From the NCBI RefSeq assembly GCF_030012175.1, contig NZ_JASCXW010000001.1:124001-188000 (forward strand): DNA of 64,000 bases. The letters run 5' to 3'. The DNA comes from Peloplasma aerotolerans. GTDB lineage: Bacteria > Bacillota_I > Bacilli_A > Acholeplasmatales > Acholeplasmataceae. The position numbers were made by a program, and so were the translations under genes. Numbering within the stretch: the stretch's first letter is position 1; each line of letters begins with the position of its first letter. Shown one piece after another: positions 51,202-58,270 of the stretch. The notes beneath the pieces are model-generated. The model was not told where the DNA came from and ran no database searches. It saw only the letters and a list, made by a program, of their open reading frames with translations.

Positions 51202-52050
51202 TTATTGATTCATGAGTCTATATTGTATAGGAGAATATCCTCCTAATGTCAACTTAATTCTTTCGTGATTATACCAATAGATATATTCATCGATTGTTCG
51301 AATCAAATCTGCTAATGATTTAACCTTTTGTAAATAGATTGTTTCACACTTAAGTGTTCCGAAGAAGCTTTCAACCACTGCATTATCATAAGCGTTACCT
51401 TTAGCACTCATAGATTGCACAAATGATGATTTTTTTAGGTAGTTACGATATTTAGGGGATTGATATAGAATACCTTGATCAGAATGAATGAGTAGCTTCG
51501 ATAAATCCTCATTTGAATTGATTGCCTTCTTAAGTGTTCTAAGAATCAAATCCTGGTTTTGACTTCTAGAGATTTGATAACCTTTGACCTCACCATTATA
51601 AAGATCTTGAATGACCGATAAATATAAACGTTTACGATTAAATCTAAATTCCGATACATCTGTGACCCATGCGATATTAGGATCATCCTTCTTAAAGTCT
51701 CTTTTGAGTAGGTTTGGTGTAATTTTATTGGATATTTGAGAGATATAGCGATATCTCTTTTTTCTTACCTTACAAACGATATGTAGCTCTTTCATGAGCT
51801 TTACAACAGTCTTATATGCTATTTTAATCTGATAGAAGTTCTGAAGAGCGAGTTTAATACGTCTATAGCCATATGTACGATTACTCGCTTCAAATATTTC
51901 TGATATCAGTATCTTGATATCATGATATTTATCAGTCTCTTTGTGGTGTTCATAATAGTAATAAACAGACCTAGGCAGACCAGATATCTCAAGTAGATCT
52001 TTTAATGCATATTTTCGCCTTAATTCTTTGACTACTTGGTATTTTTGTTT
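51202..52050 (-). CDS. IS3-family transposase OrfB (copy B)
   Basis: The frame is open for about 283 codons and continues upstream past the orfA stop, in the -1 frame (KQKYQVVKELRRKYALKDLL at its start). It has no ATG at its head; the ATG at 51,795 is internal. Triad: Asp in WVTDVSEFRF, Asp in LIHSDQGILY, Glu in NAVVESFFGTLK. Expression must come from frameshifting on the A-rich ACAAACAAAAAT stretch before the orfA stop. Frame and triad are intact, so the element may be active. Confidence 0.9.
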   Translation of the reverse strand, partial: KQKYQVVKELRRKYALKDLLEISGLPRSVYYYYEHHKETDKYHDIKILISEIFEASNRTYGYRRIKLALQNFYQIKIAYKTVVKLMKELHIVCKVRKKRYRYISQISNKITPNLLKRDFKKDDPNIAWVTDVSEFRFNRKRLYLSVIQDLYNGEVKGYQISRSQNQDLILRTLKKAINSNEDLSKLLIHSDQGILYQSPKYRNYLKKSSFVQSMSAKGNAYDNAVVESFFGTLKCETIYLQKVKSLADLIRTIDEYIYWYNHERIKLTLGGYSPIQYRLMNQ

Positions 52051-52406
52051 GTTCGTTCCTGTTTTTGAACTAAGGCGATAAGTTTTTTTGTATATTCAAG
52101 TTCCATTTCTAGATGTTTGACTTTCAATTCTAAATCTTGTTCTACCTCTTTAGATGGTTTATGGAACTGTCTAACTGGATTCTTACGATAGTCTTTAGGT
52201 GTTTGAAAAAAACGCTCTTTCCCATAGAGCCTATACTGATATACCCATCTCGCAGGCAATGTATCATTTAAACTCCCTGATGTTAAATACATATCGTATT
52301 TTCGTGCTGCTTGACTATAAGAAAGTTCATTTTCAATGATATCTAAAACCACTTTAAGTTTGAATTCTCCGCTCCATAGTCTATTCTTTTTCTTCTTATC
52401 TTTCAT
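52032..52406 (-). CDS. IS3-family OrfA helix-turn-helix protein (copy B)
   Basis: 124 residues. Helix-turn-helix (SGEFKLKVVLDIIENELSYSQAARKYDMY) followed by a lysine-rich leucine-zipper-like coiled coil (EVEQDLELKVKHLEMELEYTKKLIALV). AGGAGGT precedes the ATG. The stop overlaps the -1 orfB frame. Confidence 0.88.
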   Translation of the reverse strand: MKDKKKKNRLWSGEFKLKVVLDIIENELSYSQAARKYDMYLTSGSLNDTLPARWVYQYRLYGKERFFQTPKDYRKNPVRQFHKPSKEVEQDLELKVKHLEMELEYTKKLIALVQKQERTNKNTK

Positions 52407-53093: not shown

Positions 53094-53750
53094 TTAACAA
53101 CTGCCACCTAATGTCTTGATTGTTAGTGATGAAACACTCGTAAGATCATTATCGTTATCATCCTTAAATACGGCATAAAAAGTGTAAAAGGCACCAGATT
53201 CCAAACCATTGAACGACACAATATAAGAGTCTTGACTATATAAAGAAGTTATATAGATGTCTGGTGAGGAATCGTTTAACTCAGCAAACAACATTAATGC
53301 ATCGGTGGAACTGCTAACATTGGTAACTAAGAAATTAACATATGTGTATCCCTTCGATAAAATATCTATTTTAGGTTTTTCATGGAATCTTGTATTGGTT
53401 GTTACATCTATATAAACAGTGTAGCTAGATAAACCGTTTCTATCATCTTCAAACTTAGCAAAAAATGTATAATCTGTATTTGGATATAAGTTATGAAAAG
53501 TATAATCTATAAAATCACCTGTTTCAACCACACCAACATTTAAATTAGGTGTAGAATCAGATATATCCATTAAAAGTTTAAGCGGTCCAACATTATCTAT
53601 CGGATTAAAGACTCTAAATGTTATCGAATTTTCTGTTACATTATTAATAGAAATGTTTGGGCTCTGAATGGGGTAATTATAGTCAAGCGAATACGTACCA
53701 ACTGCTTGATCAAGTTCAGTAAAATCACCTATTTTTATACAATTGCGCAC
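53094..53750 (-). pseudogene. FN3-like surface protein remnant
   Basis: 218 codons encoding two beta-sandwich domains of fibronectin-III type (VTENSITFRVFNPIDNVGPLK and YVNFLVTNVSSSTDALMLFAELND, each followed by a LYPNTDYTF / LESGAFYTFYAVF-like strand). No signal peptide or anchor exists and the apparent start (GTG) lies inside the 53,745 tandem array, so the 5' part of a larger surface protein is probably missing. It ends TLGGSC. It follows the LRR lipoprotein and the WapA-like gene on the same strand. Confidence 0.6.
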
Positions 53751-53866: not shown

Positions 53867-54970
53867 TCAATCATTCGAATTAATAAACTCAAATGTAATT
53901 TCTGGAAAATCATTATGAATAGATTTGGCAATATCCAATGATGTTTCAATTGCATATTGGAGTTCAGCGGATTCTGTCATATTTTGAGGAAGAACTATTT
54001 GAATTGGAGACGTGTTTTGATACCCATACCGAAATGTGAAATAAACAAATAGGTTTGTAAAATCGACTAGATTCTCTTCACTTAGTTTAAAACTTGCAAA
54101 TTTTATGGAGTTGATTTTATTATAATTGTTTGATGCATTTAGTGAGTTACTGAATGCTGAATAGTGCAAATATGATAGGTTGGAAGGCAATATAATCGAT
54201 TCAATATTAGAGTCGGAAAAGACGTTAGCTTCTAAAACATTAAGATTTGCTGGCAATATGAGTTCAGTTGGTGGATTTGATTTGTAATATGCTGCTTCTC
54301 CTATGATTTCGACAGACTGTGGAATGTTTATATAAGTTGATTTAGTCTCAAAGAATGCCCCTGATTCAATTGTTTCAATAGAGTTTGAAAGAATAATTGA
54401 AGAAAAAGTTGTATACATGAATGCAGAGTGTCCTATTATTGTAATGTAATCAGGTATTCTATAAACAGCATCATAATTTCTTGTATTATATACATAAATC
54501 AGTTCTGATTGATCTTTTGTTATAATTGATAAATATCCATTAATTGTTCTTTCCATTAAATATGTGTGGTCTGCCGGGATAATAAAACTCGTTTCCTTAT
54601 AACGACCAAAAGCTGGGGCGAAATATTTTAAGTTTTTAGGTATCCTAAACTGAGTTAATTTCAATGATTCCAGACTAAATCGCTCTAGTTCAAGAATTGA
54701 GTCCGGAAGAGTAATAGATTCAATTTCTAAATCTAAATTCCTAAATGCATGAGCATCAACTCTAGTCACTGGTAAACCATTATGTGTTTCTGCAATGACG
54801 ATGTTTTCTGAAGTACCAGTATACCCAACAATTGTATATTCGTCTTTACCTTCGATTTTCTCAAAGACAACCCCTTCAGTTGTAACTACTTTATTATCCT
54901 GGCAAGATATTAAAATCAGCACCATTATTAGTGCAAAAAATATACATATGGTAGCATTTAATGATTTCAT
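53867..54970 (-). CDS. BspA-type leucine-rich-repeat lipoprotein
   Basis: 367 residues from ATG 54970 (AGGAGG seven bases upstream). The signal peptide ends in a lipobox LILISC with Cys near 23. After a short linker come LRR_5 units: VTRVDAHAFRNL, ITLPDSILELERFSL, FRIPKNLKYFAPAF, ITIIGHSAFMYTTFSSIILSNSIETIESGAFFETKSTYINIPQSVEIIGEAAYY. Extracellular surface lipoproteins of this type mediate adhesion or protein contacts. It overlaps nothing but lies 12 bp after the WapA-like gene, so both are probably one operon. Confidence 0.87.
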   Translation of the reverse strand: MKSLNATICIFFALIMVLILISCQDNKVVTTEGVVFEKIEGKDEYTIVGYTGTSENIVIAETHNGLPVTRVDAHAFRNLDLEIESITLPDSILELERFSLESLKLTQFRIPKNLKYFAPAFGRYKETSFIIPADHTYLMERTINGYLSIITKDQSELIYVYNTRNYDAVYRIPDYITIIGHSAFMYTTFSSIILSNSIETIESGAFFETKSTYINIPQSVEIIGEAAYYKSNPPTELILPANLNVLEANVFSDSNIESIILPSNLSYLHYSAFSNSLNASNNYNKINSIKFASFKLSEENLVDFTNLFVYFTFRYGYQNTSPIQIVLPQNMTESAELQYAIETSLDIAKSIHNDFPEITFEFINSND

Positions 54971-54981
54971 CGTCATTCCTC

Positions 54982-56781
54982 CTATGTTTGAATTTTTATA
55001 GCAAGATACAAAATATCTCCATAATAAACATCATATGGCTCTTGCCCTGGTGGATTTTGCAGACACCATATTACATGAACTGGATTTACACGTTGTGGTG
55101 CAAAAAAACTAGATGGTGTCATGGTAAATTTGTCAAACCAACCTTCATTAAAATTTCTTCTAATAAAATGGTAATCACTACCAAACCATGAGGATGGATT
55201 ATACCCTGTTCGCATCCCAATTATATATTCATTAGCGTCTATAGTTTCATCATAACTTGAAAGTCTCCGATAATCGATACCTAGATAATCTAAATCATTT
55301 TCTACTCTCTCACGTATAGTTTCAACATGAGTGTATGTTGAATCTTGAGTGCCAGAAAAATATCCTGGACTAATATTAGCATTTATACCTAGGGCAAATG
55401 CATAACAATTGAGATATGTTCGAGTATCAGGGACATACCATTCACCTAGATTGATTTCTATTGAAGGTTGATATGTACTACTGGAATAATTACTCGCATA
55501 AAATCTTGTAGAATATCTAACGAATGGCTGTCTAGGATATAATCTCAAAGTGAGGCTTTCTTCTAACATGTTATGTTTGTAAATTTCATTATCAATGTTG
55601 AATTCATAGAATGAACCAGAACCAGATAATACGTCAATATCTAGGTAATCATAATCTGATATTCCATTCATTGAATCATAACTTAATGGATCTGATATAT
55701 CTTGAACTAAAATACCACTTGTTGGAGTTTGGTTTTCCTTAATATGTAGTTTTAACTTGATATCATCTATCGAAGTATAACTGGAATTATTATATATACT
55801 CATTATGTTATCATATATGTCTTTTGCGTTCAATTCAATTAAACTAAAAACTAATGTTTCAGTTTGTGGTTCTACAAAATAAAGGTCATCATACTGCACA
55901 CGGAAGTAAGAATTATCTGTACAAGAGGCTGAACCCACATAACAATATTTATCTCTCATGAATTGATTTGTTGTATTCATTTTGAAATTAACAATTGGAT
56001 CAATAATAACAGGATATTCTCTATCTGAATCCATCAGCCATTTTTGATTCGGTTTAACTTGGAAACGATAAAATCCTTTAAAGACTTCTTCAAAGGTTAC
56101 AGTGACATCGTCAGAATAGACTTCATTACTATCAAACATGAAGTAAGGCTCAAATTCAAAAATGATTTCACCTTGAGGATTAATGAAGATTAAAGATGCG
56201 TCTTCGAGAGATACCATTGACAAATTATTCAAAATTAAATAATAGTCAACTTTGAAATCCTCTACATATTCACTTAAGACAAAACTTTCTTTTAACTGTG
56301 TAGGTGATAAATCTAGTACTAAATCAGTATTACTCTTAATATTGTTGTATGTCAATTGGCTTTGAGCTTTTTCTATCCCTTTAGACCCTAAGTCATTCGA
56401 TACAGAAAAATTAGACTCTATACTATTTGGGTAATAAAACTTAATACTTGAGTCTTGATGTTGAACTTCAATCAAGTTTCCTTTAGCAAGTGTTTCAGGA
56501 AGACTAACTTGATAATTCGAATTTTTAGTTTGATAAGTATTCTTATTCTTATTCTTAACCAGAGACATATCAATGTCATTATACTTACCATTTTCAAAAA
56601 AGTGAACATCATGATTATATAATACCATTTTTCCGCTACCATCATCTGTCTGAAATGTTTTTGAATTCGCAGTGCGTAATTCTATCATCTCACTACTTAT
56701 GAGCTCTGAAGCGCTAGAATTCATTTGAGATAAAAAGCCAATACATGTGAATAACAGAAAAAATAAAATAATCCTTTTCAT
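54982..56781 (-). CDS. Secreted WapA-like protein with C-terminal Cys/His domain
   Basis: 599 residues from ATG 56781. Signal peptide (MKRIILFFLLFTCIGFLSQ). The N-terminal region has the SKTFQTDDGSGKMVLYNHDVHFFENGKYNDIDMSL block found at the start of Rhs/WapA-like proteins; the middle (YPVIIDPIVNF and a later DNRLRE-like beta domain) also fits. No YD repeats exist. The C-terminal 130 residues have NCYAFALGINANISPGYFSG and later GSDYHFIRRNFNEGWFDKF, a Cys...His pair (about 459 and 538) resembling NlpC/P60-like or papain-fold domains. It could be a cell-wall enzyme or a toxin; neither is shown. Confidence 0.8.
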   Translation of the reverse strand: MKRIILFFLLFTCIGFLSQMNSSASELISSEMIELRTANSKTFQTDDGSGKMVLYNHDVHFFENGKYNDIDMSLVKNKNKNTYQTKNSNYQVSLPETLAKGNLIEVQHQDSSIKFYYPNSIESNFSVSNDLGSKGIEKAQSQLTYNNIKSNTDLVLDLSPTQLKESFVLSEYVEDFKVDYYLILNNLSMVSLEDASLIFINPQGEIIFEFEPYFMFDSNEVYSDDVTVTFEEVFKGFYRFQVKPNQKWLMDSDREYPVIIDPIVNFKMNTTNQFMRDKYCYVGSASCTDNSYFRVQYDDLYFVEPQTETLVFSLIELNAKDIYDNIMSIYNNSSYTSIDDIKLKLHIKENQTPTSGILVQDISDPLSYDSMNGISDYDYLDIDVLSGSGSFYEFNIDNEIYKHNMLEESLTLRLYPRQPFVRYSTRFYASNYSSSTYQPSIEINLGEWYVPDTRTYLNCYAFALGINANISPGYFSGTQDSTYTHVETIRERVENDLDYLGIDYRRLSSYDETIDANEYIIGMRTGYNPSSWFGSDYHFIRRNFNEGWFDKFTMTPSSFFAPQRVNPVHVIWCLQNPPGQEPYDVYYGDILYLAIKIQT

Positions 56782-57185
56782 CAGTATCCTTTTTTGACTG
56801 ATCATAATTTATGGATATTTTTATGTCAAGTGATGATGTTTCCCCCATCGAATCAATCTTTATTTACATTATATATGTTTATCTATTTTTTTGCAACACA
56901 AAATTTGAATCAGATTCACGTAAAAAAATGGCTTGTCATTATGGACTTTATCACTGTTTTTGATAACCTCTATACTAACTTTACTATAAATGATGCTATA
57001 AGTTTATATTTTTTAAAAAATAAATAGCCTGCTATTTAGTGGATAAACCCTATACCATTGAATGTGAGAACATAAAGAACACTTGTGGCCTCAATAGAGA
57101 GATTATAATGATTTTTTAGTGTCAAAAAAAGTAGTAATACATGTTTACCCAAACAAACCTCGACTATCATTTTCAATCTATTTGA

Positions 57186-57589: not shown

Positions 57590-57733
57590 TTACAACTTAT
57601 TGACAATATAATATAAAAATGATAAAAAGAAGATAAACAAGAACTTTACTTAAATACAAATTGGTTTTAGCATAGTTTAATAGATACAAAGAGTAAAAAT
57701 CCTTCATATGTAAAATATCAAGGAGGGAGATTG

Positions 57734-58270
57734 TTGATTATGAAACAATTTTTAATTCTATTAATCTTTCTACTTTCAGCATTAATGCTTTTCGGATGCT
57801 CTCTATTGAGTTCAAATAATATCGAGCAAATTATTATAGTTGATGAAGATCTAAAGCAATCTCTACCTCAAACTTATAGTCTACTTCACTATGAATATAC
57901 TGAGAACCATAATAATGAATATACTTTAGTTATTCACACCTATGATATGTTTTTAATAAATCTCGAGCAAGGATTGCTGGTTTCATTTGAAGCATCAAAT
58001 ATCACAAAATCATATTTTGATATGTATTCAATGATTATTATAAGTTTTGGATGGGGAGATACACAAGAAAACTTTACGATTGGAAGCCTTAGTAAGAATA
58101 GCGAAAATAAGATAGATTTAGTCATTGATGTGCTTTATGATGAACTAGTAGGTTACCCATATGATCGAAGAGTTTTAGTCATTGAAGTAGGTAAAGGATT
58201 GATTGGATCAGCCACTGAAGTGAATCACACTTTCAATGTAATTGAGGTGAAGAATAATATCGACTCATAA
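57734..58270 (+). CDS. Lipoprotein of unknown function
   Basis: 178 residues. A signal peptide with lipobox (LMLFGC, Cys near 22) is followed by a beta-rich domain (EQIIIVDEDLKQSLPQTY, then SMIIISFGWGDTQENFTIGSL, IDLVIDVLYDELVG). The AGGAGG at 57721 is seven bases before the TTG at 57734; the ATG at 57740 is thirteen bases away, so TTG is a little better supported. Family unknown. It is the rightmost accessory-looking gene, with a terminator at 58,548. Confidence 0.72.
   Translation: MIMKQFLILLIFLLSALMLFGCSLLSSNNIEQIIIVDEDLKQSLPQTYSLLHYEYTENHNNEYTLVIHTYDMFLINLEQGLLVSFEASNITKSYFDMYSMIIISFGWGDTQENFTIGSLSKNSENKIDLVIDVLYDELVGYPYDRRVLVIEVGKGLIGSATEVNHTFNVIEVKNNIDS

Follow-up and report, generated by a model that had tools for sequence, protein, structure and literature searches.

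The window analysed here is a stretch of 64,000 nucleotides from Peloplasma aerotolerans (NCBI RefSeq assembly GCF_030012175.1, contig NZ_JASCXW010000001.1, positions 124,001 to 188,000 of the forward strand). Its minus strand carries a gene (54982..56781) encoding a 599-aa protein in which a WapA/Rhs-type leader is joined directly to a predicted papain-like domain, followed 5 bp after the stop codon by the gene for a leucine-rich repeat (LRR) lipoprotein. We consider it likely that this locus specifies a polymorphic toxin acting outside the cytoplasm, together with an LRR-lipoprotein immunity protein. The direct observations behind this interpretation are the homologies of both parts of the protein, the invariance of a Cys and a His residue, the papain-like tendency of the structural models, the co-divergence of the two genes, the occurrence of orphan and toxin-less loci and the exported nature of the partner proteins. 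An earlier reading of the sequence alone had placed a WapA-like secreted protein with a C-terminal Cys/His domain at 54982-56781; the gene is indeed found there, and we add its strand.

The C-terminal domain and its family

Residues 451–599 (54985..55431, minus strand) have no Pfam or NCBIfam model, and the entire 599-aa protein gave no family match in Pfam, NCBIfam or PADLOC. By profile comparison, the group including the window protein (A1) and the canonical group (A2) belong to one family (probability 99.2%, E 2.6e-19), for which a genome scan identified 79 loci in Bacilli, Clostridia, Proteobacteria, Acidobacteria, Myxococcota, a Hodarchaeota metagenome-assembled genome (MAG) and others. 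Plasmid and phage records each contained one relative. The family signature is NCYxYA ... DYHxxR ... W..K, and Cys459, Gly473, Asp496, Asp536, His538, Arg541 and Lys551 are invariant in the 79 aligned members. The DYHWYRQ motif served as a search pattern, and invariance across that part of the 79-member set is therefore biased; the N-C and D-x-H residues were also kept in all 14 members recovered by profile or similarity search and not by pattern. The Cys/His pattern noticed from the sequence alone is thus a family-wide feature, with Cys459 (codon 55405..55407, minus strand) as the predicted nucleophile and His538 (codon 55168..55170, minus strand) as the predicted catalytic histidine.

AlphaFold (AF2) models were obtained for the window domain (pLDDT 75, pTM 0.74) and for that of a Paenibacillus relative, L064 (pLDDT 92, pTM 0.89). 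In both, the Cys opens a helix and the His lies within a strand, which is a central one in the case of His538. The top 50 Foldseek matches of the L064 model in the PDB were mostly papain-like, none of them significant, and were spread over many papain-like clans (Josephins, RavD, PCAT1 C39, USPs, Tse1 and CHAP). Against BFVD, the same model matched three viral predicted proteins (M1HB16, F2Y2U4 and Hokovirus A0A1V0SF80), all with E 7e-6 or better and down to 5e-13. Relatives of the family thus occur in bacteria, the Hodarchaeota MAG and a phage, and among the predicted proteins of large DNA viruses. A PDB sequence search with the family profiles returned nothing credible. On the basis of these models, we read residues 451–599 as a putative papain-like enzyme of an uncurated family. 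The papain-like resemblance proposed in the sequence-only reading is consistent with this view, and the NlpC/P60 assignment offered beside it found no support, since no NlpC_P60 profile matched and the structural matches were dispersed among clans. The curated libraries searched do not cover this large family, whose members are probable toxins with cysteine-enzyme activity.

Co-divergence of the domain and the LRR lipoprotein

The gene following the putative toxin gene (53867..54976, minus strand) encodes a 369-aa BspA-type lipoprotein with an LRR_5 domain (Pfam E 7e-27) and the lipobox ILISC, as had been supposed from the sequence. A full-length homologue of the window protein was found in G005 (71% identity), but the similarity is unevenly distributed: identity is ~82% in the leader up to residue ~450, 36% in the C-terminal domain and 32% in the LRR lipoprotein. 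Synonymous divergence between the two loci was 0.83 for the leader, ~2.2 for the domain and ~2.0 for the LRR gene, the latter two values being approximate because they are near saturation. This jump speaks for replacement, not for accelerated protein evolution alone, and the leader itself had a dN/dS of 0.13. The P. aerotolerans genome also contains a second copy (C4, L002), which has kept the promoter region upstream but neither the signal peptide nor the greater part of the leader. Compared with G005, this copy shows 76% identity in the domain and 75% in the LRR protein. DNA similarity of the window locus to this leaderless copy and to G014 ends at 55394..55401 (minus strand), just past the NC motif, which marks the junction between leader and cassette. 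In short, the N-terminus is conserved, whereas the C-terminal domain behind it varies and a linked gene varies with it.

In G003 and G019, two relatives that lack exactly the toxin gene, the LRR gene follows the conserved promoter region directly, whereas in G005 the toxin gene sits between them. The toxin-less junction is located at the TGATGAAAAG shared by the two start codons, and no relatives of the domain were found in the G003 and G019 genomes. This state presumably arose by loss, not gain, of the toxin gene. The toxin-less LRR gene is under purifying selection (dN/dS 0.14, G003 versus G019), and the fact that it has been kept where the enzyme is missing weighs most heavily in favour of immunity over a co-factor role. 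Orphans therefore exist on both sides, as a leaderless toxin cassette and as toxin-less LRR loci. Together with the intact loci, they form a natural series that indicates which gene confers immunity. Judging from these comparisons, the LRR lipoprotein is very probably the antidote of the adjacent toxin, and it is the most likely candidate for the cognate immunity gene that the sequence-only reading had suggested looking for. Adhesin is the usual annotation of BspA-type LRR lipoproteins, some of which may be immunity proteins.

In G014 (L010 and L136), a domain and LRR pair lies at the start of C45, and the permease of the G005 site is found near the end of C89; this split is probably a broken copy or an assembly break.

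A WapA/Rhs-type leader without the YD-repeat shell

The proposed WapA/Rhs-like leader is borne out by residues 26–450, which show homology (26–33% identity) to the N-termini of YD-repeat proteins from the same genus and order. The YD-repeat proteins sharing this leader are ~2000 aa long, with open frames of up to ~2300 aa. The region comprises a WapA/Rhs-type leader proper (residues ~26–270, 55972..56706, minus strand) and a DNRLRE-like part (residues ~271–450, 55432..55971, minus strand), the latter so named because the aligned part of an Rhs relative (L025, with DNRLRE, YD repeats and Rhs_assc_core) has a DNRLRE domain; the family library scan gave no DNRLRE match in the window protein itself. 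YD/RHS repeats and Rhs_assc_core had no matches (0 in Pfam and NCBIfam), confirming that the shell is absent and that the C-terminal domain follows the leader directly. The fusion of such a leader to a toxin-like domain had been considered unusual, and it is real but not unique: it recurs in the G005 homologue and in shell-less proteins of G016 and G159, and in three clostridial MAG proteins (L060, L063 and L065) DNRLRE is joined to the same C-terminal domain with no Rhs match. Residues 30–183 of the leader (56233-56694, minus strand) also matched a phage 'virion structural protein' profile in PHROGs (phrog_37549, E 5e-10), and no relative turned up when viral contigs were searched with the complete protein.

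Genomic context of the domain in other organisms

The domain was found C-terminal to Rhs cores at six loci (L033, L088, L090, L096, L101 and L120), and this arrangement extends over at least six lineages. The next gene downstream was predicted to encode an exported protein in 31 of the 45 loci having such a gene, versus 104 of 467 other genes at the same loci (Fisher p 4e-10); here, 'exported' means lipoprotein, signal peptide or single anchor assigned by simple rules and not by a trained predictor, and related loci were each counted separately. These partners belong to many unrelated groups, mostly exported, with BamE-like proteins among them.

In 26 loci (including L074, L078, L080, L083–L086 and L122), the Cys/His domain is followed downstream by an uncurated family of ~115 aa with the motif DVFSGRPNPxW (SGRPNP family), members of which are also often fused N-terminally to the domain; two members scanned had no Pfam match. 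In an Anaeroplasmataceae phage (PV036447.1, L043 4276-7307), a trypsin-like domain is fused to the Cys/His domain two genes after a holin, and the next gene encodes a lipoprotein with homology to the L044 partner.

Relationship with known toxin systems

The locus resembles the WapA/Rhs polymorphic toxins of Gram-positive bacteria, such as Streptococcus suis WapA (PMC12704120), in its Sec signal, DNRLRE/leader N-terminus, variable C-terminal domain, linked downstream gene and truncated orphan copies. It differs from them in lacking the YD-repeat shell, in having an LRR lipoprotein as partner and in its probably wall-less producer. Papain-like polymorphic toxins have been described as Tox-PL1, PL2 and PL3 (PMC3482391). 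The domain shares with them a papain-like character, an NC...H signature and an Rhs-linked C-terminal position, but its signature is NCYxYA ... DYHxxR ... W..K and not NC-H-DxQ. PF15644, which we take to be Tox-PL1 and is now named Gln_amidase, was not matched (hhalign probability 0.2%, against one member only). The nearest Pfam model was DUF7689 (PF24738), which remained below threshold in several members (best E 0.0017, 19.5 versus 22.6 bits); compared by this profile only, no scanned member, the window protein included, passed the cut-off. No true DUF7689 members were present among the relatives searched, and the papers searched yielded no match for DUF7689 or the DYHWYRQ motif.

LRR immunity proteins are a described class, Imm-LRR (PMC3482391), and membrane or periplasmic immunity is represented by TipC and by the BamE-like proteins reported for the membrane-acting Lipocone toxins (PMC12419801, PMC6193138). 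Where the immunity protein is exported or carries a lipid anchor, this points to toxin action outside the cytoplasm; the partners in our family are likewise mostly exported, and some are BamE-like. The pairing seen here differs in combining a BspA-type LRR_5 lipoprotein with a papain-like toxin, for which we found no report in the open-access papers searched.

Target, proposed mechanism and alternatives

The sequence-only reading had doubted a wall target in the host because no peptidoglycan genes were seen in the window. This doubt extends to the whole genome (99.6% complete), in which the Transpeptidase, MurG C-terminal and MraY-type families had no match and controls were detected; LspA was present. 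The producer is thus probably wall-less but lipoprotein-processing, as judged from its gene content. Given the absence of these marker families, we rejected the producer's own wall as the target; within its own lineage, peptidoglycan is a less likely target than some component of the membrane or surface. That a wall-less cell should have a lipid-anchored immunity protein also suggests that the toxin acts at the surface of the membrane, on a target other than peptidoglycan. This raises the question of what a wall-less bacterium attacks and guards outside the cytoplasm.

We infer the secretion, catalysis, toxicity, neutralisation and target of the toxin from the observations above. The protein would be exported by Sec, its shell-less WapA/Rhs-type leader carrying a papain-like Cys-His enzyme that would most likely be released or presented at the cell surface. 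The enzyme could hydrolyse an amide, peptide or ester bond in an extracytoplasmic target of a competitor, and the LRR lipoprotein, tethered to the membrane's outer face, would bind and block its cognate domain. Enzyme part and lipoprotein gene would evolve and be replaced jointly behind the conserved promoter and leader. It is also conceivable, although we hold this more tentatively, that the domain defines a new and broad family of papain-like toxins, in which wall-less members hit a non-peptidoglycan membrane or surface target and the BspA-type LRR lipoprotein is a specific extracellular inhibitor.

Several points weigh against the toxin and immunity interpretation. Delivery of a toxin without the Rhs shell has no explanation, no Foldseek match against the PDB reached E 0.001 (best E 0.017), and the third conserved Asp, common elsewhere in the family 25 residues after the His, is Gln563 in the window protein. 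Only four toxin/LRR pairs are known, and LRR_5 proteins are common on the surface in this order, so the partner could have another role. The common partner in the proteobacterial and archaeal group, the SGRPNP family, is mostly non-exported, and some family members are followed only by housekeeping genes (L046, L047 and L057).

The last point, together with simple secreted members having no partner gene (L058, L059, L066 and L067) and the frequency of LRR_5 proteins in the order, would also suit a secreted papain-like processing or nutritional enzyme that sits on the surface of its own producer and has the LRR lipoprotein as partner or anchor. We regard this as improbable, because purifying selection maintains the LRR gene in two relatives that have no copy of the enzyme, enzyme and partner co-diverge behind a stable leader, the partners in the family are many, unrelated and mostly exported, and the domain is fused to Rhs cores. 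A peptidoglycan amidase or endopeptidase of the NlpC/P60 or CHAP type, directed against walled competitors, might be suggested by the presence of Tse1 and CHAP lysins among the weak Foldseek matches and by the family member shortly after a phage holin. It appears distinctly unlikely, given that the NlpC_P60 and CHAP profiles were unmatched and that a producer without Transpeptidase, MurG and MraY would need no self-immunity to a wall hydrolase, yet the partner has been kept even in genomes that have no enzyme. Finally, although real deletion derivatives exist in the group (the leaderless copy and the toxin-less G003/G019 loci), a decayed, non-functional Rhs/WapA remnant with a deleted shell is very improbable, as the full-length architecture is common to G005 under leader constraint, similar shell-less proteins occur in G016 and G159, and the reading frame, Cys and His are intact.

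Start codon, promoter region and neighbouring sequences

The open reading frame extends over 56805..54982 (minus strand) and would encode 607 aa if read from an upstream in-frame ATG at 56805. ATG 56781, with the stop at 54982, is the likelier start of the toxin gene, because a promoter-like TTGACA-17-TATGAT (56801..56829, minus strand) overlaps ATG 56805 and AAAAAAGGA precedes ATG 56781. A second promoter-like element, TTGCAA-17-TATAAT, lies at 56896-56868 (minus strand); both elements are consensus matches only. This promoter-like region is kept in G005, in the leaderless copy and in the toxin-less LRR loci. The signal peptide recognised previously is also discernible by eye, as residues 1–25 (MKRIILFFLLFTCIGFLSQMNSSAS; 56707..56781, minus strand).

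The FN3 remnant claimed at 53094-53750 could be recovered only as a weak similarity (fn3, 17.6 bits versus a cut-off of 25). Divergent from the toxin gene, a small lipoprotein-like open reading frame without family assignment lies at 57731-58270 (plus strand). Within a few kb of the toxin locus, pieces of an IS3-type transposase were observed at 51202-52406 (minus strand); the second of the open reading frames appears truncated.
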